Part shown: positions 37,800 through 46,463 of the stretch, piece after piece
Position numbering within the stretch: position 1 is the first letter of the stretch
Layout of the letters: the number at the start of each line of letters is the position of its first letter
DNA from: Odoribacter sp.
GTDB lineage: Bacteria > Bacteroidota > Bacteroidia > Bacteroidales > Prolixibacteraceae
DNA length: 64,000 bases
Direction: 5' to 3'
Assembly: GCA_013824715.1 (NCBI GenBank)
Contig: PNOH01000002.1
Location: forward strand, 124,001-188,000
Notes under the pieces: model-generated
What the model saw: only the letters and a program-made list of their open reading frames with translations
Told to the model about the DNA's origin: nothing
Databases searched by the model: none
Position numbers and translations under genes: made by a program

Positions 37800-38498
37800 T
37801 TAAATTTTCAGCTTGCCACCCTTCTCAATGGGCGGAAAATAGATTTGCTGCCCGGGTGAAAGTTTTCTGAAATTCACCAACTTATTTGCTTTGGCCACTT
37901 CGAGGTAATATTTCGGGTCGCCATAAATTCTGAAGGTCATTAACGGTAGAGTATCTCCTTCGTTAATAATGCGCACATGGGTCAGGTCAGGAGAATTGTT
38001 GTTTTCCCGGGCAATGCGAAGATCGTCTTCAATAAATCCTTTGAACCTGGCACGGGCGCTGGCCCTGATCGGTGTTCCGTCGGGTTTAAATAACTTGAAG
38101 GTAATTTCCATCTGGCTTAAACTGCCTTTAAAAAGGAGCGCTCCCCAGGAAATAACCAGATAATTCGGCTTATGCTCGTCGCCGTTATAATCAAGAATTA
38201 CTTTCCTGAAATTATCCACATCATCAATGATCCCGTCACCCGATTCGTCTTCGTAGCCTTTAATCACTCCTGAACGGTCGAAAATAAATTCAAGATCGAG
38301 ATCTTCGGGCAAGGCTTTATTAAAACGGGGAGCAGCAGAACTGGTTCCCTGCGCCTGGCTTTGGTTTTGCTCAATCTGATATTTGACCAGGTACTTTTCA
38401 GGATTTAGTAGGGTGTTGAATTCACCATTGGCAACTTCCTGTGTAAACCGTTCGTCACGGTAGGCCTTTATTTTTAGTTTGGTCAATTCTCCACTCAT
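37800..38498 (-). CDS. LysM-containing tube/baseplate adaptor (Afp7-like)
   Basis: A 232-residue protein. The N-terminal 150 residues (LKIKAYRDERFTQEVANGEF, NPEKYLVKYQIE, PEDLDLEFIFDRSGVI, WGALLFKGSLSQMEITFKLF) match the CIS tube-initiator family, with KLFKPDGTPIRASARARFKGF near 135. The C-terminal 45 residues are a LysM-like module: INEGDTLPLMTFRIYGDPKYY..ANKLVNFRKLSPGQQIYFPP. In Afp and PVC this protein links the tube to the hub. LysM here is structural rather than wall-binding. It is 11 bases downstream of the DUF5908 gene. Confidence 0.93.
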   Translation of the reverse strand: MSGELTKLKIKAYRDERFTQEVANGEFNTLLNPEKYLVKYQIEQNQSQAQGTSSAAPRFNKALPEDLDLEFIFDRSGVIKGYEDESGDGIIDDVDNFRKVILDYNGDEHKPNYLVISWGALLFKGSLSQMEITFKLFKPDGTPIRASARARFKGFIEDDLRIARENNNSPDLTHVRIINEGDTLPLMTFRIYGDPKYYLEVAKANKLVNFRKLSPGQQIYFPPIEKGGKLKI

Positions 38499-38509
38499 GA
38501 TGTTTCGAT

Positions 38510-38674
38510 TTATCGTTCCCGGGTTTTCGAAATGATCTCCAATACCTGTTCAACGCATTGCGCAACCAGGTCTTCTTGTGCAAGCTTGCCTTTGGAACTG
38601 TCTCCTGAAGCCGGTGGATTTTGATTATCGGTCACGTTTATTTTGATATTCAACTCCTTAATTTCGATGGGCAT
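38510..38674 (-). CDS. DUF5908 small protein (Afp6-like)
   Basis: A 54-residue protein beginning MPIEIKELNIKINV, the hallmark of DUF5908. This start is taken rather than the longer frame to 38719, which would overlap the tube gene; here the ATG follows the tube stop after a single base. The rest is a polar linker and one amphipathic helix (EDLVAQCVEQVLEIISK). Family members sit beside tube genes in extracellular injection systems. Their role is not well defined and may concern assembly. Confidence 0.88.
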   Translation of the reverse strand: MPIEIKELNIKINVTDNQNPPASGDSSKGKLAQEDLVAQCVEQVLEIISKTRER

Positions 38675-38675
38675 G

Positions 38676-39107
38676 TCAAATCGTTTTAAAATAGCTGTAC
38701 GACAATTCAAGGCTTTCAATAACTATCTTACTTTCTTCGGCGTTGAAATCGGTCACCGACCATTTTACCGGCCAGGCATGGATGACATTCCAGGTCATCA
38801 ATGGTTCGTGGTCCTCGTTCAGCAATTTAATAATGACGTCGGTAGGTGAGAAATTGAATCCTTCTGAACCTTCTTTGCACCAGTCAATCAAAGCTGAATT
38901 TGCGAGCAAGCCCCTTTTGAGTACCAGGTTCGGATACCTTGGACGGCCCGGAAGTTTGTGAACAAAGCGATTTTCTCCTCCTTCGGTAATATCTTCTGTC
39001 CCCAGGTTAAAACTTAACCCGGAGACAGACTGAAACTGATATTCATCCTTCTGATTTCCAAATTCCACCAAAAAATGAAATCCCAAAGGAGGATAACTGT
39101 TGCTCAT
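38676..39107 (-). CDS. Second inner-tube protein (Afp5-like)
   Basis: A 143-residue protein of the T4 gp19-like phage tail tube family: YPPLGFHFLVEFGNQKDEYQ at the start, FQSVSGLSFNLGTEDITEGG, RPRYPNLVLKRGLLANSALIDW in the middle and VTDFNAEESKIVIESLELSY at the end (ordered landmarks). It is paralogous to the next upstream gene, with the same length. By analogy with Afp5, it is probably the layer joining the main tube to the spike hub, while the other tube protein builds the shaft. Confidence 0.91.
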   Translation of the reverse strand: MSNSYPPLGFHFLVEFGNQKDEYQFQSVSGLSFNLGTEDITEGGENRFVHKLPGRPRYPNLVLKRGLLANSALIDWCKEGSEGFNFSPTDVIIKLLNEDHEPLMTWNVIHAWPVKWSVTDFNAEESKIVIESLELSYSYFKTI

Positions 39108-39110
39108 TGT

Positions 39111-39542
39111 TTATTCGTTTTGAATAGTTAGTCCTTCATGTACCAATTCCATTGATTCGATCGCTACTTCGTTTCCGTCGGCCTTCAAATCGGTTGATTG
39201 AATTTTGGTTGGCCAGGCGTTTTTTATTTTCCAGGTCACAACCGGTTCGTGTTCTTCATTGAGTAAACTAATAGTAACATTTCGACGCTCAATGGTATTG
39301 AGCTTAACTGTATTCCACCAGTTGTAGTATTCGTTGTCGTTCTTGAAAGTGCCTCTCTTCAGGGTAATGTTGCTGAATTTCTGCATTCCGGGCATCTTGG
39401 TTTTCGAATATTCCGGACTCGAACCTTCCCGGTATTCCACCACTTCAGTTTCTACATCTAAACCTGAAACTTCGGTGAACCCTATTTTTGTTCCACCCCA
39501 GTCAACCTGGAAATGGAACTTCACTAATGGATATGCTGCCAT
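39111..39542 (-). CDS. Main inner-tube protein (Afp1-like)
   Basis: A 143-residue Hcp/gp19-like tail tube protein: YPLVKFHFQVDWGGTKIGFT, EVSGLDVETEVVEYREGSSPEYS, KMPGMQKFSNITLKRGTFKND and STDLKADGNEVAIESMELVHEG (ordered landmarks). It is very close to consensus for the main shaft protein of extracellular injection systems. It follows the sheath gene after 26 bases, and its stop lies three bases before the ATG of the second tube gene, so sheath and tube come from one message. Confidence 0.94.
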   Translation of the reverse strand: MAAYPLVKFHFQVDWGGTKIGFTEVSGLDVETEVVEYREGSSPEYSKTKMPGMQKFSNITLKRGTFKNDNEYYNWWNTVKLNTIERRNVTISLLNEEHEPVVTWKIKNAWPTKIQSTDLKADGNEVAIESMELVHEGLTIQNE

Positions 39543-39568
39543 GTTTTTTATAATTTAAGTTGTTAATA

Positions 39569-41524
39569 TTAAGATTGTTGAAGCTTGTGCGAAAATTTCA
39601 GGATGATGAATTCAGCCGGGCGTACTACGGCCATACCAATTTCAATGTGCATAAATCCATTCAGGATATCTTCGGCGGTCATCGTCTGGCCTAAACCTAC
39701 ACGTACATAAAATGCTTCATCGGGTTTTGCTCCGGCCAGCGCTCCGGCCCGCCATTGCAGAATCAGGAAGTTTTCGATCATGGCCCTGACTTTTACCCAG
39801 GTATTGGCATCGTTTGGCTCGAAGACAAACTGGGCAGTTGCCTTTTTTACGGATTCTTCAACCATATTGAAGAACCTGCGGACTGAAACGTACCGCCATT
39901 CATTGTCGTTTCCGGCCAGTGTCCGGGCTCCCCAAACGAGTGTTCCTTTTCCCGTAAACGACCGGATGGCATTGATTGATTTTCCGGCTGTGGTATCTAC
40001 ATTCAGCCCGTCTTGCATGTCGTTCGTAATCTTGACAGAGGGTCTGATCACATAATTCAGGCCGACATTGGCAGGTGCTTTCCAAACGCCCCGGTCGCGG
40101 TCAACCCGGGCATAAACTCCTGCAATGGCTCCGCCTGGCGGCATTTTGACGTAAAGTTTGGAAAGTGCAGTTTTAATTTCGTTGAAAGTTGTGCTGTCAG
40201 TATTTTCAATCACATTCAGTTTCAATCCATCCAGTTCTCCATTGGTGTCGGCGGCTTGCGCTGCAGTAATAGCAAGAATAACCGGAGGGTCAATAAGCGA
40301 TATGATACCATTAATCACTGTTTCGATGGTTGATGCAGTTGCTACTGCGTTAGTGGTTTCAATTTTTACTGCTGTTCCGCTTACTGCTGATTCAATAGTA
40401 GTAATGTGTCCTTCCAGCGCTGTTTTCATAGTGGCAATGGCTCCTCCGAGACCTGTAGTCAATGCTGCAGCGGCAGCAGTACAGGCGGCAGCTACCGGAG
40501 CTGATTCGCTGGAGGCTGCTGCGGCAAAATTTGCTGATGCAACCACATCAGTACCCGAAGTAATTACTGAATCAAGCAAGTCCACAATGGGTTGAATGGC
40601 ATCGGTAGCTAAACTGGATTGGGCAAGCGCTTCGGCGGCGGTTAATGCATCAATGGCTGTTTTTGCATCCGACAAAGCAGTTACCAGATCACCGCTATCA
40701 TCCAACTTTTCATTGATTTCATCCAGCGCAATGTTTACATCTTCAAGTGTATCAAATAAAACAGGCGAGTCATCGGTAATATGGTCAATGGATACTGCTG
40801 AAGTTTTGAAGTTGTAATTCATCAGAGTTTCGATGAAAGGATAATAAGCCGCTCCATATTTGAGATAGTCTTTTTCAAGATTGATCCCGTCTCTCAGACC
40901 TTCAGCCGGGGTAGGATCATCAGTTTCATCATCGGTATAGGTGTCGAGAATGGTAAATCTGTCCTGAAGTTTATTGCACTGCGTGAGTGCATCCTTATAA
41001 ATCGCATAGAAATTGTCGGATGACAGGGCTGTAGCATCGGGGAATAAAAGAAGTGTTGGCTCATCTTCTTTTTCTATTTCCGAAAGTCCTTCCTGAAGAT
41101 CTTCGAGTTGAACCGGAGCGGTGGCATTTGCCACAATAGCAGCGGTATAAGTATTTACAGCGGTAATGTAACACGGACCTCCTCCATTCGCAAAATATAA
41201 ACGAAGGGCATAATACATACGGAATGGCGATTTTGTTGAAGGTTGAGGAACTGTGATGTTTCTTTTCTGAACGCCGTTAACTGTTGTATCGGTGATTTTA
41301 ACCTCGATGCCTGTTTCCAGATCGGCGCCTCCAAAGTAAGTTTCGTATTCTAAAAGTGAAGTGATTCGAAACGGATTCAGGATTAAATCGTCAGTTTCCT
41401 TTCTGGAAGCCTTTTCAGTATAGCCAATAAAGGCTGGGATTGCAGTTTCGACCTGTGCTACCGATGGCGGGAATTTTGCAATTTCCTCTACGTAAACACC
41501 CGGTGTTTTGTACGTTGTTGCCAT
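39569..41524 (-). CDS. Contractile sheath protein with a large Ala-rich insertion (Afp2-4-like)
   Basis: A 651-residue phage tail sheath protein. The start KTPGVYVEEIAKFPPSVAQV, the segment ALRLYFANGGGPCYI (about 106-120), and the C-terminal core MPPGGAIAGVYARVDRDRG..WKAPANVGL (461-489) to FMHIEIGMAVVRPAEFI are canonical. Residues about 240-455 form an unusual block rich in Ala, Thr, Ser and Asp (for example SANFAAAASSESAPVAAACT), probably an outward-facing domain. It is the only sheath gene here, whereas Afp has three. The sheath contracts to drive the tube out. It is the second gene of the locus, 43 bases after the DUF4255 gene. Confidence 0.95.
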   Translation of the reverse strand: MATTYKTPGVYVEEIAKFPPSVAQVETAIPAFIGYTEKASRKETDDLILNPFRITSLLEYETYFGGADLETGIEVKITDTTVNGVQKRNITVPQPSTKSPFRMYYALRLYFANGGGPCYITAVNTYTAAIVANATAPVQLEDLQEGLSEIEKEDEPTLLLFPDATALSSDNFYAIYKDALTQCNKLQDRFTILDTYTDDETDDPTPAEGLRDGINLEKDYLKYGAAYYPFIETLMNYNFKTSAVSIDHITDDSPVLFDTLEDVNIALDEINEKLDDSGDLVTALSDAKTAIDALTAAEALAQSSLATDAIQPIVDLLDSVITSGTDVVASANFAAAASSESAPVAAACTAAAAALTTGLGGAIATMKTALEGHITTIESAVSGTAVKIETTNAVATASTIETVINGIISLIDPPVILAITAAQAADTNGELDGLKLNVIENTDSTTFNEIKTALSKLYVKMPPGGAIAGVYARVDRDRGVWKAPANVGLNYVIRPSVKITNDMQDGLNVDTTAGKSINAIRSFTGKGTLVWGARTLAGNDNEWRYVSVRRFFNMVEESVKKATAQFVFEPNDANTWVKVRAMIENFLILQWRAGALAGAKPDEAFYVRVGLGQTMTAEDILNGFMHIEIGMAVVRPAEFIILKFSHKLQQS

Positions 41525-41567
41525 AATTTTCTGTTTTTAGTTTATAGTTTATTTAACTTTAGATTGT

Positions 41568-42167
41568 TTAAACTTTCTCTTTTAGCTTGAGCGTATCAGT
41601 GATTTCCAAAATCACTTTTTCGGTTCCTTTTAATAACTTTTGATCAATTTCAACTAACTGAATTTTGTAAATCACCGATGGTAGCTGTCTTCCGCCAAGC
41701 GTTCCCCATACATGATTCAACTCCTCGAATGAGGGAGTGTACAACTCGGTAATGAGTTTAAAGTGTCCGAGTACATCAAAGTCTTCTTTGATTTCATAAA
41801 CTGTATTTTCAGAAGTAAAAATCTTTTTTCCCTGAAAAAACTCTATGGTTTTAGAGATGCTCCTTAAAGAATCGGAGTATGAATTGCAATTGCCGCTGAT
41901 GAGCAAAAAAAGGTTCAGGTGAACAGGAGGGTTTCTATATTCGGTGGTCGTTTTATCAATGACCTTGTAATTCGGAAGATTTTTTAAAGTAGTTTCTTCC
42001 TCCAGATTAAGCAGAGTCAGCACAACTTTGTTATCCAGTTTATTCGAATTATCGTTCGATGTTTCAATCATCGCAATATTTTCGAGGGTTACCAGATTGC
42101 CTAATCCGGCAGCAGAAAGGTAATTGTCCAGTTGTTCACTAATAATCTGTAACGCTTCGTAAATCAT
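41568..42167 (-). CDS. DUF4255 tail terminator protein (Afp16/Pvc16-like)
   Basis: A 199-residue DUF4255 protein: MIYEALQIISEQLDNYL at the start, VVLTLLNLEEETTLKN, then NPPVHLNLFLLISGNCNSYSDSLRSISKTIEFFQ and HVWGTLGGRQLPSVIYKIQLVEID (ordered landmarks). In Afp and PVC this protein caps the tube and sheath and stops growth at the proper length. It is the first gene of the minus-strand locus; the promoter should lie in 42168-42650, but I find no clear Bacteroidota promoter on that strand (only an imperfect TACTTTTA close to the start). Confidence 0.93.
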   Translation of the reverse strand: MIYEALQIISEQLDNYLSAAGLGNLVTLENIAMIETSNDNSNKLDNKVVLTLLNLEEETTLKNLPNYKVIDKTTTEYRNPPVHLNLFLLISGNCNSYSDSLRSISKTIEFFQGKKIFTSENTVYEIKEDFDVLGHFKLITELYTPSFEELNHVWGTLGGRQLPSVIYKIQLVEIDQKLLKGTEKVILEITDTLKLKEKV

Positions 42168-42598: not shown

Positions 42599-42629
42599 TT
42601 TGTTCGTTGAAGATTTTGCTTTACCTTTG
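42599..42629 (+). promoter_or_regulatory. Promoter of the ArsM-like gene
   Basis: TTTG (42599-42602), a 19-base spacer and TACCTTTG (42622-42629) exactly match the Bacteroidota consensus TTTG-N19-TAnnTTTG. The ATG at 42649 follows after 19 bases. Confidence 0.75.
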
Positions 42630-42648: not shown

Positions 42649-43290
42649 ATGAACACTATTGAAATTGCAGGGAGATATACGGTTCTGGCCAACGACACCT
42701 GCTGCCTGTCGTGCGGGGGGGCAGCACAGAAAAGTGAAGCAAAGCATGATGAAGTTTGCATTGATTTAGGAAGCGGACGCGGAACTGATGTTTTGAGATT
42801 GGCCGAAGAAGTTGGACAGGGTGGTTTTGTTTATGGTATTGATATCACTGAAGAAATGATCAGAAAGGCTAATACCACCGCAGCAAAAATGGGCGTTGAA
42901 AATGTGAAATTTATTCAGGCTGATCTGGAGCAAATTCCATTACCCGATGAAACTGCAAACCTGATCATTTCAAACTGCACCTTGAATCATGTTAGCAATA
43001 AACCCGGAGTTTGGGCAGAAATATACCGTTTGCTGAAAAACGGCGGACGTTTTGTGATCAGCGATATTTATTCGGGCGAACCTGTTCCGGAGGAATATGC
43101 CAACGATCCGGAGGCAGTTGCCGAATGTTGGGCAGGATCAATCACCAGGGAGGAATATATCGCATTAATTAAAGCAACCGGATTCAAAGATTTTCGTATT
43201 CTCGAAGAAAGCGCTCCTTACCCGAAAGGAAAAATTGAAGTTTCAAGCTTTACGATCACGGCGAAAAAAGATGATTTTAGTTGCTGCTGA
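42649..43290 (+). CDS. ArsM-like class I methyltransferase
   Basis: A 213-residue SAM-dependent methyltransferase starting MNTIEIAGRY, chosen because it directly follows the promoter. The SAM loop is IDLGSGRGTD, and the fold continues with GIDITEEMI and IQADLEQIPLPD. It has Cys residues placed as in arsenite methyltransferases: C18, C19 and C22 near the start, Cys in ISNCTLNHV and Cys in AECWAGSITREEY; it ends in SCC. ArsM methylates arsenite using glutathione or thioredoxin. The thioredoxin-reductase fusion downstream fits that, but no ArsR, ArsB or ArsC is nearby. Another metalloid, or a peptide thiol, could be the substrate. Confidence 0.82.
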   Translation: MNTIEIAGRYTVLANDTCCLSCGGAAQKSEAKHDEVCIDLGSGRGTDVLRLAEEVGQGGFVYGIDITEEMIRKANTTAAKMGVENVKFIQADLEQIPLPDETANLIISNCTLNHVSNKPGVWAEIYRLLKNGGRFVISDIYSGEPVPEEYANDPEAVAECWAGSITREEYIALIKATGFKDFRILEESAPYPKGKIEVSSFTITAKKDDFSCC

Positions 43291-43578: not shown

Positions 43579-43674
43579 ATGAAAAGTTTAGTAAAAAAAG
43601 CCTGCAAGGGAGGCGTTAAACAGGCACAATGTTGTGCCAAACAATCACAGATTATTGCCGGATGCCACGATTAA
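43579..43674 (+). CDS. 31-aa Cys-rich peptide, candidate radical SAM substrate
   Basis: A small gene between the ArsM-like and radical SAM genes, encoding a 31-residue peptide that begins MKSLVKKACKGGVKQAQCC and ends AGCHD. Cys residues are at 9, 18, 19 and 29, with His30; the N-terminal half is Lys-rich with GG at 11-12. The frame starts with ATG and ends with TAA, and its composition is unlike the repeats around it. A short Cys-rich peptide directly upstream of a radical SAM/SPASM maturase is the typical layout of ribosomally made, modified peptides; a metal- or arsenic-binding peptide is the alternative. I know no named family with this sequence. It could still be a chance frame. Confidence 0.6.
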   Translation: MKSLVKKACKGGVKQAQCCAKQSQIIAGCHD

Positions 43675-43685
43675 GGCGTCCGAAA

Positions 43686-43815
43686 TAGCCTCCCCCAACC
43701 CCTCCGAAGGAGGGGGGTGGGATGGCTTATTTAATAAGTTACGATCCGTCAAAATTTTAATCTAAAAAAGCGCTCCCTGGCTTTCCCCCTTGGGGGAACG
43801 GGAAGGGGGCCTCTA
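43686..43815. repeat. MITE-like GC-rich repeat between peptide and maturase genes
   Basis: Two hairpins, CCCCTCC-GAA-GGAGGGG (43699-43715) and TTCCCCC-TT-GGGGGAA (43783-43798), bracket about 65 AT-rich bases. The outer ends, AGCCTCCCCC and GGGGGCCTCT, are roughly inverted. A similarly built element lies at 58640-58772. It reaches the start of the radical SAM gene. Confidence 0.6.
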
Positions 43816-43819
43816 TCAA

Positions 43820-45118
43820 ATGCAACTTTCCAAATACAACATCATTTCAAAAATTAAGGATTCTGACAATTGGTTTGTCGTGAATGCCTTGTCAGGACAG
43901 GCTGATGTGCTCGATCAGGAAACTTGGGAACAACTGAATTCAGGTGTGGCGAATCCGGAGTTTGTTGAGAATGGCTATCTGGTTGACCCGGCCCAGGAAA
44001 AACGTTTGTTCAGGGAGAAATACCTGCAATTTTTGGATGACCGCGAGAAGGACGAAGTTCAGATATTTTTTGTGACCAACTATTCCTGTAATTTTGATTG
44101 TTCCTATTGTTATCAGGCTGGTTACGAAGCTTTACCGGTCGCTTTGTCGAAAGAAGTTACCGACTCGTTTTTTGATTACATTCTGAAAGAGTTTTCAGGA
44201 AGACAAAAATACATTACCATTTTTGGCGGAGAACCTTTTTTGAATGCCCCAAGCCATAAGGAAAACATCGGATACATCATTCAAAAGGCCGCTGAAAACA
44301 ATCTGGAAATTGCTGCAGTAACCAATGGTTATCATCTGGAGGAATACATCCCGATCCTAAAAAAGGGAATTATTCGTGAAATTCAGGTGACACTCGACGG
44401 AACCAGCAAAATTCATAATCAACGCCGGTACCTAAAAGGCGGCAATCCGACTTTCGACCGAATCGTGCACGGTGTTGACCTTATACTTGAAAACCATATG
44501 CCTGTCAATCTCCGCATGGTTGTTGACAAGCAAAATATCGGCAATTTGCCCGATCTGGCTCAGTTTGCTATTGACAAAGGCTGGACTGCATCGCCACTTT
44601 TCAAGACCCAATTGGGCCGGAACTACGAACTGCATGAATGTCAGGCCAACCAGCAAAAATTGTATTCAAGGCTCGAATTGTATCAGGATTTGTACAATTT
44701 GCTGAAGAAATTTCCCCACATCAGGGAGTTTCACAAACCTGCATTTTCGGTCTCGAAATTTTTGTTCGAACAGGGAGAAATGCCCGCTCCTCTCTTCGAT
44801 GCCTGCACCGGAACCAAAACCGAGTGGGCTTTCGATTTTACCGGAAATGTTTATGCATGCACGGCTACTGTTGGTAAAAAGGGCGAAAGCCTGGGTACTT
44901 TTCATCCTGAAGTCAGGAAAAATACCGAAGCCGTTGAAGAATGGCAGGAACGCGATATTTTATCTATTCCGAAATGCCAGGGCTGCAACCTGAACCTGAT
45001 TTGTGGCGGTGGCTGTGCTTCGATGGCGAAAAACTACAACGGATCGCTGAACAGTCACGATTGCCGCCCGGTTACTGAATTACTGGAAATGGGAATTGGT
45101 CATTATTTTAACGAGTGA
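43820..45118 (+). CDS. Radical SAM/SPASM peptide-maturase-like enzyme
   Basis: A 432-residue protein starting MQLSKYNIISKIKDSD; the frame upstream to 43790 is repeat sequence. The radical SAM cluster motif is C90-x3-C94-x2-C97 (CNFDCSYC), followed by the GGEPF and TLDG motifs. The C-terminal SPASM domain is complete: CTGTKTEWAFDFTGNVYAC, CQGCNLNLICGGGC and a final Cys in HDCRP, enough to hold two auxiliary 4Fe-4S clusters. SPASM enzymes mature peptides (for example thioether or Cys-based crosslinks) or proteins. The N-terminal 80 residues may bind the peptide. The neighbouring 31-aa Cys peptide is the obvious candidate substrate. No PqqD-like protein is seen. Confidence 0.92.
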   Translation: MQLSKYNIISKIKDSDNWFVVNALSGQADVLDQETWEQLNSGVANPEFVENGYLVDPAQEKRLFREKYLQFLDDREKDEVQIFFVTNYSCNFDCSYCYQAGYEALPVALSKEVTDSFFDYILKEFSGRQKYITIFGGEPFLNAPSHKENIGYIIQKAAENNLEIAAVTNGYHLEEYIPILKKGIIREIQVTLDGTSKIHNQRRYLKGGNPTFDRIVHGVDLILENHMPVNLRMVVDKQNIGNLPDLAQFAIDKGWTASPLFKTQLGRNYELHECQANQQKLYSRLELYQDLYNLLKKFPHIREFHKPAFSVSKFLFEQGEMPAPLFDACTGTKTEWAFDFTGNVYACTATVGKKGESLGTFHPEVRKNTEAVEEWQERDILSIPKCQGCNLNLICGGGCASMAKNYNGSLNSHDCRPVTELLEMGIGHYFNE

Positions 45119-45194: not shown

Positions 45195-46463
45195 ATGAAA
45201 GAAATAATTTCATCAGATTACGAAAAAGAAGTGTTGGCTGGCCAAAATGTGCTGGTTGACTTTTATTCAACCGAATGTCCTCCCTGTGAAGCAGTTGCTC
45301 CCAAATTAGAAACCTTGGAAAAATTATTTGGAAAAGAAATCAAATTTGTGAAAATATTCCGGCAGGGAAACCGCGATCTGGCAGATCAACTGGCGGTGAA
45401 ATCATCGCCGACTTTGCTGTTTTATCAGGATGGTGAAGAAGTAAGCGCCCGCCTGACTGGTGGAGTAAAACGCTCGGAAATAGTTCGGGAACTGAAACAT
45501 GTGCTCGGGAAAGACCGGGTATCTGAAATCATGAAAACTCAGGAGCCGACCATAAGCGATGTTGATGTAGCCATTTTGGGTGCCGGCCCGGGTGGACTGA
45601 CTGCCGGTTTGTACCTCTGCCAGGCACGAATCAATACGGTTTTGGTTGATATTGCTTTGCCCGGAGGAAATGTCTCGACCACCCACATGGTTTCGAATTA
45701 TCCCGGATTTATTGATCCGCAGCCCGGATACATGCTTTCGCACAACATGTCGGAACAAACCAAACGCTGCGGAACAACCTACAAGGTTGCCGTTGACGTG
45801 ACTCATGTTGATTTGCTGAAAAAAGAAATTGTTATCGATTCACAGGAGACAATCCGCGCCAAAAGGATAATAATTGCTACCGGAACTTCGCCAAACAGGA
45901 TAGGAATTCCGGGCGAGTTGGAATTTAAGGGACAAGGAATTTCATATTGCGCAACCTGTGACGCTAAATATTTTGTTGACAAAGAGGTTGTAGTGATTGG
46001 CGGTGGAAATTCGGCTATCGAAGAGGCTGATTTTATCTCGAAGTTTGCTTCGAAAATTACCATTGTTCACCAGTTCGACCAACTTCAGGCCAACAAAATA
46101 GCGCAGGAAAAAGTTTTTGAAAATCCGAAATTTTCGTTTCTGTTCTCTCACGAACCTCGGGCATTTAAAAAGGCTGGCGACAAAATGGTGGTTGAAGTGG
46201 AAGACCTGAAAACCAAAGAGATGAAAACACTGATTTCGGATGGAATTTTTGTTTTTATCGGACAGAAACCAAACCTTGAAATGTTTGGCGATAAGCTGAA
46301 GCTTGATCAGTGGGGGTATATCCAGACAGACGAGGATATGCGCACAAACATTGATGGGGTATATGCTGTTGGGGATGTCGGCAGCAAGAAATACAGGCAA
46401 ATCACTACAGCCATTGCCGACGGAACCATTGCCGCTATTTCAATCACCCGCGAAATCGGATAA
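45195..46463 (+). CDS. Thioredoxin-thioredoxin reductase fusion
   Basis: A 422-residue protein in which thioredoxin comes first (1-105, active site C28-P-P-C31, preceded by VDFYSTE) and thioredoxin reductase second (115-422). The reductase has the FAD loop GAGPGGLTAG, redox pair C252-A-T-C255, NADPH loop GGGNSAIEEA and the closing GDVGSKKYRQ segment. The usual fusion has the reductase first, so this order is uncommon. The active site is CPPC rather than CGPC. Such a unit passes electrons from NADPH to a disulfide. In this island it could keep the Cys peptide, the SPASM enzyme or the ArsM-like enzyme reduced. It is complete and probably cytoplasmic. Confidence 0.92.
   Translation: MKEIISSDYEKEVLAGQNVLVDFYSTECPPCEAVAPKLETLEKLFGKEIKFVKIFRQGNRDLADQLAVKSSPTLLFYQDGEEVSARLTGGVKRSEIVRELKHVLGKDRVSEIMKTQEPTISDVDVAILGAGPGGLTAGLYLCQARINTVLVDIALPGGNVSTTHMVSNYPGFIDPQPGYMLSHNMSEQTKRCGTTYKVAVDVTHVDLLKKEIVIDSQETIRAKRIIIATGTSPNRIGIPGELEFKGQGISYCATCDAKYFVDKEVVVIGGGNSAIEEADFISKFASKITIVHQFDQLQANKIAQEKVFENPKFSFLFSHEPRAFKKAGDKMVVEVEDLKTKEMKTLISDGIFVFIGQKPNLEMFGDKLKLDQWGYIQTDEDMRTNIDGVYAVGDVGSKKYRQITTAIADGTIAAISITREIG

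Follow-up and report, generated by a model that had tools for sequence, protein, structure and literature searches.

What does a gene for a 31-residue, cysteine-rich peptide do in front of a radical SAM/SPASM enzyme gene in Odoribacter sp.? We analysed a 64,000-nucleotide stretch of DNA carrying both (this whole stretch is called the window). As a preliminary description had claimed, the frame at 43579–43674 (plus strand) is present and translates to MKSLVKKACKGGVKQAQCCAKQSQIIAGCHD-stop, that is, 31 amino acids with cysteines at positions 9, 18, 19 and 29 and a histidine next to last. We annotate it as a precursor or carrier peptide gene, with residues 16–31, AQCCAKQSQIIAGCHD, as conserved core. 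The same description placed a methyltransferase gene upstream and a complete radical SAM/SPASM gene downstream, and both are there: a short ArsM-like methyltransferase (MT) of 213 amino acids (42649–43290, plus strand) and a radical SAM/SPASM maturase of 432 amino acids (43820–45118, plus strand), which starts at a conserved ATG at 43820 and not at the TTG at 43790. The unit as first drawn (43579–45118) does hold peptide and enzyme, but it omits a thioredoxin-thioredoxin reductase fusion (Trx-TrxR) of 422 amino acids (PF00085 and PF07992) at 45195–46463 on the plus strand. An exact match to TTTG-N19-TAnnTTTG, which we take to be the Bacteroidota promoter consensus, lies at 42599–42629 (plus strand), 19 nt before the MT ATG. 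TAnnTTTG was found at most 130 nt before the MT start in 38 of the 54 relatives with enough upstream DNA, a count that has no shuffled control.

Up to this cassette, the minus strand carries phage-tail-like genes (37821–42167), including a LysM-like protein, two tube-like proteins and a tail-sheath-like protein (MATTYKTPGVYVEEIAKFPPS..., 39569–41524, minus strand); by eye they resemble a contractile injection system. Many Bacteroidota loci have, divergent to MT, a zinc-ribbon protein of about 145 amino acids that presumably resembles the N-terminus of IS1595 transposases (a cluster of 16 loci, with L037, L042, L059, L061, L075, L078, L085 and others). It is a candidate domesticated regulator.

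The preliminary description had looked to conservation of the small frame beside orthologous radical SAM genes and to selection at the protein level, and both were found. Conservation is strict: scanning the genome collection with the enzyme gave 68 loci (48–93% identity to the window enzyme), and 61 of them have, ahead of the enzyme, a short gene with AQCCAKxSxxxxGCHD-stop as its end. The 5' end of the enzyme gene is cut or broken in each of the seven others; the enzyme match starts at most 31 nt from the locus start in six, and L020 is without the N-terminal part. Among 18 close relatives, pN over codons 16–31 is 0.000 versus a pS of 0.272, and pN/pS is 0.02 for codons 1–7 and 0.43 for the linker codons 8–15. 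The peptide thus combines a conserved head with a frozen core, and the linker between the two is freer to vary. One element of the claimed cysteine pattern fell away, since the window copy alone has Cys9 among the 18 close relatives. This residue falls in the linker, which varies in length and sequence (Paludibacter-type copies also have a cysteine at the corresponding position), and the conserved residues are C18, C19, C29, H30 and D31. In 159 records (1.47 Mb, almost all of them retrieved on account of this system) the motif QCCxKx6GCHD-stop was counted 142 times, spread over 141 of the records, and it was never seen after each record had been base-shuffled once; it is therefore not due to chance. 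In our view it is almost certain that this peptide gene is genuine and that its product works together with the radical SAM enzyme.

No NCBIfam or Pfam model matched the peptide at E 1, and 26 of its relatives gave a single, chance-level NCBIfam match (trifolitoxin, E 0.12). A match to the PDB entry 'Tet4 variant' (E 0.004) was likewise taken as chance. Some peptides, among them that of L149 (with SAAQCCATAQCCAK) and Paludibacter-type copies such as L031, L037 and L042, hold a second CC or CxC group in the linker, an arrangement that suggests a duplication of the core. Between the peptide and enzyme genes of the window lie G+C-rich self-complementary stretches (43685–43730 and 43770–43812), which may set peptide expression above enzyme expression, and a similar repeat, coding for SPNPSEGGG, stands in the corresponding gap of L011. 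Folding of the gap was no better than that of shuffles (z -1.2), and no inverted repeat was found in it.

How far does the peptide reach? A profile built from the 26 peptides was searched against the window's phylum and against Spirochaetota, Myxococcota and Fibrobacterota. It matched 6 of 296 genomes for the window's phylum and 30 of 100 for its family, in each case with one match put down to chance, and 11 of 13 for its genus. At E 0.001, matches came from 34 of 296 genomes in Spirochaetota (the phylum to which L028, by title one of the Spirochaetae, belongs), 23 of 195 in Myxococcota (L062) and 5 of 167 in Fibrobacterota (L032; Fibrobacteres). Matches in G106 (E 0.008) and G357 (E 0.006) were discarded as chance, being partial and in genomes with no enzyme at E 1e-20. 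Some matches fell in open frames of 200–600 amino acids, as if the peptide were fused to larger proteins; we rejected this and read them as ordinary short genes, because in these frames the conserved start comes only at the end. All 121 merged copies of at least 25 bits (weaker ones were left out of the counts) end AQCC[AST]Kx(S/T/A)xxxxGCHD-stop. Nine tail residues (A, Q, C, C, K, G, C, H and D) never vary; A, S or T stands at position -12, and S at position -9 in 119 of the 121. Enzyme identity between peptide-bearing loci falls to 31%; evolution of the tail is therefore much slower than that of the adjoining enzyme. A quick tree of 99 enzymes, with 24 of its 96 inner branches weak and many long, does not keep the phyla apart everywhere (6 label changes against a minimum of 3). 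A search for carriage of the system on plasmids gave no match at E 1e-30.

The four genes keep company. MT was found in 59 of the 68 scanned loci, the nine misses being seven cut loci and two real ones (L025, L035), and Trx-TrxR follows the enzyme in 67, the sole miss ending with its contig. Another 40 stretches from other phyla held MT, enzyme and TrxR (33) or MT and enzyme alone (7). By a 400-nt enzyme segment, 151 records were merged into 134 units, the window copy (L001) being dropped and two chance matches (L074, L087) and L106, a short copy of L116, still being included. All four genes stand together in 103 of these units. Among the loci carrying the set is L058, from a MAG labelled Paludibacter jiangxiensis. 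The rest comprise 11 with enzyme and TrxR (seven cut, four of a split type), 10 without TrxR, 2 without MT, 4 with peptide and MT, 1 with peptide, MT and TrxR (the short copy of L116), 1 with MT alone and the 2 chance matches. Gene order was MPRT in 81 units, TMPR in 9, MPR in 9, MRPT in 4, tpMR in 3, Rtpm in 3 and PTMR in 2, with others besides; linkage is kept while order changes. Distances of the four genes correlate (r 0.93, 0.92 and 0.86 over 99 loci, values that still include the effect of shared species descent; 4 of the 103 four-gene units were left out for short matches). Single irregularities were a frame break in the MT of L016, a second, interrupted reductase match in L146, and L112 and L113 (10–11 kb) and L142 (6.5 kb), within which no reductase was found nearby.

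Co-occurrence extends to whole genomes. Within the window's phylum, where 46 genomes were compared, all 33 peptide carriers have the enzyme (best match at least 54% identity) and 12 of 13 peptide-negative genomes do not; the exception, G384, has an enzyme whose first 92 residues are unmatched. Among 195 Myxococcota genomes the enzyme (at least 44% identity) is present in 24, including 23 of 23 peptide carriers, and the remaining one, G740, has MT, enzyme and TrxR; a search there found no peptide. MT orthologues (at least 56% identity) occur in all 33 carriers and in G359. That genome (92% complete) has kept MT, followed by a short frame with the peptide start and without the cysteine core, and a search of it did not find the enzyme. 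In genus g155, G340 and G379 have the usual gene order. Five other genomes of this genus (G351, G383, G386, G389, G392) have MT and peptide adjoining a flavoprotein-like or other gene, with enzyme and TrxR 5–18 kb off or on a different contig. In G389 a further copy of the peptide gene adjoins the enzyme, and G386 has a second, broken enzyme copy. Such separation, together with the three clustered cysteines, would suit an unmodified metallothionein-like chelator or regulator, with the radical SAM enzyme acting elsewhere. We regard this as very unlikely, since the enzyme is present in every peptide-positive genome checked (33/33 and 23/23) and absent from G359, whose peptide frame has lost the core, since Q17, K21, G28, H30 and D31 vary no more than the cysteines do, and since the enzyme has the fold of peptide maturases. 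RiPP systems are recognised by a substrate gene beside its modifying enzyme, and here 121 peptide genes co-occur with the enzyme; from these sequences we infer that the enzyme acts on the peptide.

The enzyme carries the radical SAM motif CX3CX2C (C90, C94, C97) and the SPASM cysteines C329, C347, C386, C389, C395, C399 and C415, whose spacing we take to be C-x-GX4C, CX2CX5CX3C, C. All ten are present in every non-gap row of a 72-row alignment. Its NCBIfam scores lie below the cut-offs: 157.6 bits for CefB (NF038107; cut-off 600), 124 for TIGR04463 (525), 117 for PapB (NF047865; 340) and 92 for the SCIFF maturase (TIGR03974; 425). Five divergent members are likewise below cut-offs, with CefB and TIGR04463 among their top three. 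Structure comparison gave CteB, ChlB, anSME, TigE and SuiB as best rows, with 5why as best Foldseek match (E 4.9e-18). That is, the fold is that of peptide maturases and CteB-like over the full length. The full-length matches to CteB and TigE extend over the N-terminus (three strands and three helices), which on these fold matches we regard as a candidate RRE-like domain.

Full-length architecture is thus common to the window enzyme and CteB, the maturase of SCIFF ranthipeptides (PDB 5wgg, 5why), but identity is 19% and the peptide is different, and we know of no CteB that travels with an ArsM-like MT or Trx-TrxR. CefB and TIGR04463, maturases of Cys-rich peptides, are the best-scoring families, yet the window enzyme falls far below their cut-offs and the peptide is without their Cys-every-fifth pattern. 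Enzymes of 33% identity in G768 and G809 also lie near small frames, which end CECCINV(S/D), and the 9–11 kb surrounding these two relatives gave no match to MT or TrxR. The two relatives, at 5275 of L152 (minus strand) and 4489 of L153 (plus strand), are presumably of TIGR04463 type; the ends of the frames near them, CECCINVS and CECCINVD, represent another Cys-Cys tail, in one case with Asp as last residue.

What does the methyltransferase add? C22, C110 and C160 of MT correspond to the As(III)-binding cysteine triad of ArsM and are kept in 66 rows from four phyla; the matching cysteines are given as As(III) ligands of CmArsM in PMC3877260. MT shares the fold and these three ligands with ArsM (NF008823; PDB 4fr0, 5evj, 8xt7). 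It differs in its length of 213 amino acids, in a His114 where ArsM structures have Leu, in having a peptide gene and a SPASM enzyme gene linked to it, and in scoring below the NF008823 cut-off of 263 (185.4 bits in the window; of two divergent members, one has 177.1 and the other, L145, 228.9). By fold, ArsM is not the only candidate, since YcgJ ties with it, and the putative arsenic link would rest mainly on the retained triad. No ars family was among the 25 commonest families listed for 75 and 104 neighbour proteins. One ACR3-like transporter was recognised in L026 by reading its sequence, and tblastn found no second one in 99 loci and the window. A separate ArsM relative (35–41% identity, open frame of 232–297 amino acids) occurs in 21 of the 33 peptide carriers; for arsenic methylation by itself the set may thus be unnecessary.

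ArsM also pairs with radical SAM enzymes elsewhere, as here: with ArsL for arsinothricin and with ArsS for arsenosugars. PMC8552651 states that ArsL and ArsM suffice for arsinothricin and names ArsS for arsenosugars. ArsL and ArsS act on small molecules; the window enzyme, by contrast, belongs to the SPASM peptide maturases and has a peptide gene in its set. ArsM-like selenoproteins with a C-terminal Sec, such as methyltransferase/UXPK-star, are named in a review (PMC13188914). That family (NF047649) has a related MT domain, to which the window MT scores 106.6 bits, far below the cut-off of 460; here the peptide gene is separate, with Cys instead of Sec. The UXX-star protein, going by its name, has Sec two residues before the stop, where GCHD-stop has Cys. 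Selenocysteine versions of our system were sought and rejected: among in-frame stops listed within matches of at least 100 bits for the three enzymes, those in Myxococcota-type reductases lie between the Trx and TrxR domains and not at cysteines, and a peptide motif search allowing stops at the Cys positions found none there. Myxococcota-type loci often have Trx and TrxR as two genes. The window Trx-TrxR scores 314 bits against TIGR01292 (cut-off 343).

Neighbouring genes point partly to sulfur. A first scan considered 75 of 98 proteins (DUF1847 was already out, and mostly repeats from the window's genus were dropped), and a second, in other phyla, 104 of 173 counted proteins, some of them doubtful frames. 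Among the 75 operon-like neighbours were thioredoxin (13), rhodanese (6) and DUF302 (6), others being fewer. Within the stretches of the 134 units we counted rhodanese 9, DUF302 12 and SQR-III-like flavoproteins 17 times (two below 30% identity), and extra thioredoxins of two overlapping kinds 30 and 25 times. The MT-peptide pair of L075, L078 and L085 stands beside a gene for a 485-residue flavoprotein-like protein that is weakly SQR-like (31 bits, cut-off 525). The peptide might accordingly shuttle sulfane sulfur, as per- or trisulfide, among SQR-like flavoproteins, rhodaneses and thioredoxins, with MT S-methylating sulfide or a thiol; its C18-x10-C29 near the C-terminus recalls the arm of DsrC, whose C-terminal cysteines have a comparable spacing. 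However, these sulfur-type partners are optional and mostly found in Bacteroidota. The 104 neighbours of other phyla have no shared theme (acyl-CoA dehydrogenase, the commonest family, occurs 4 times; Pyr_redox_2 3 and Thioredoxin_2 2 times among the 25 commonest families listed), and to our knowledge sulfide methylation needs no As(III)-type Cys triad. We consider a sulfur carrier rather doubtful. Separately, DUF1847 lies in the stretch of 42 of the 134 units, often between enzyme and Trx-TrxR or after Trx-TrxR (L004 7306–7863, L042 9418–9888, L061 9248–9742), and offers a lead on that family.

Would the product leave the cell, or become a cofactor within it? Radical SAM/SPASM enzymes with short Cys peptides are the usual sign of ranthipeptides and sactipeptides, and OPT oligopeptide transporters occur among the neighbours (2 of 104), which would fit a secreted antimicrobial or metallophore RiPP. 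Against this stand the near-invariance of the tail across four phyla and the lack of any exporter, peptidase or immunity family common to the loci among the 25 commonest neighbour families listed. The near-invariant tail and the absence of a listed exporter make a secreted natural product unlikely, and a secreted antimicrobial or metallophore we rate as extremely unlikely, the antimicrobial being rejected; the preliminary description's broader proposal of a modified-peptide pathway without a known family held up, as the peptide is conserved and matches no model and the enzyme is CteB-like. Mycofactocin provides the precedent for a peptide-derived redox cofactor. Radical SAM enzyme and MT might both act on the peptide to yield such a redox or group-transfer cofactor (mycofactocin- or PQQ-like), used by Trx-TrxR or SQR-like flavoproteins. 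The near-invariant tail, a flavoprotein reductase in nearly every complete locus, and TIGR04463- and CefB-type maturases as nearest enzyme families are consistent with it. We nevertheless think it unlikely, as the loci share no releasing peptidase (one YgjP-like metallopeptidase among 104 neighbours, within the 25 commonest families listed) and the As(III)-type triad of MT would have no evident role in methylating a peptide.

At the level of sequence, then, four genes are co-inherited: a tiny peptide, a radical SAM/SPASM enzyme with an RRE-like N-terminus, an ArsM-like MT and Trx-TrxR. The reading we favour, as a carrier system, runs as follows. The N-terminal domain of the radical SAM enzyme would bind the basic MKSL...K head of the peptide, and the enzyme would cross-link or otherwise modify the tail AQCCxKxSxxxxGCHD. 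The matured peptide would stay inside the cell, and its Cys18, Cys19 and Cys29 (with His30 and Asp31) would carry a thiophilic species as thiolates to MT, with a trivalent metalloid, As(III) for example, as the likeliest cargo. MT would take the species onto its C22/C110/C160 triad and methylate it with SAM, and Trx-TrxR with NADPH would re-reduce the thiols of peptide and MT. ArsM is used together with thioredoxin, which reduces it, and many Bacteroidota lack glutathione; in this reading the peptide would replace, in gene-encoded form, the glutathione by which other ArsM enzymes are fed.

Confidence differs between the parts. On sequence and fold comparison, chemical modification of the peptide is very probable, and we think it likely that it remains in the cell. 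That the Cys tail carries a thiophilic species for MT, with an arsenic-type metalloid placed ahead of sulfur, we propose tentatively and at somewhat below even chances. The whole carrier system, serving an MT for a thiophilic element and recharged by Trx-TrxR, we hold to be possible with equal reserve. In its most far-reaching form, SPASM enzyme and MT would jointly build an organometalloid peptide or load a ribosomal one with metalloid, and the CC...GCHD tail would bind As, Sb, Se or Te, making the peptide a carrier cofactor that replaces glutathione in bacteria of four phyla; this form is improbable. The recurrence of sulfur-type neighbours (rhodanese, DUF302, thioredoxins, SQR-like flavoproteins) rather than ars genes speaks against the carrier reading. 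SCIFF maturation is thioether chemistry, and if the present enzyme made thioethers from cysteines, fewer thiols would be left for carrying.

What is new here? Among the 25 best NCBIfam models listed per protein, none reached its cut-off for peptide, enzyme or MT, and Pfam gives enzyme and MT generic domains only. Searches of open-access literature yielded no paper on the peptide or the four-gene set. The chemistry belongs to radical-SAM peptide maturation, known mostly for variable, often secreted products; new is the combination of a frozen, apparently non-secreted peptide with an ArsM-type MT and Trx-TrxR. A tail nearly frozen in four phyla, the reductase, the ArsM-type MT and little sign of export argue for a core intracellular function. 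The peptide looks like an undescribed intracellular cofactor or metal(loid)/sulfur carrier. If the carrier reading is true, the system would show how some bacteria pass reactive soft elements to a methyltransferase, and it would be relevant to the volatilisation of arsenic or sulfur in sediments.
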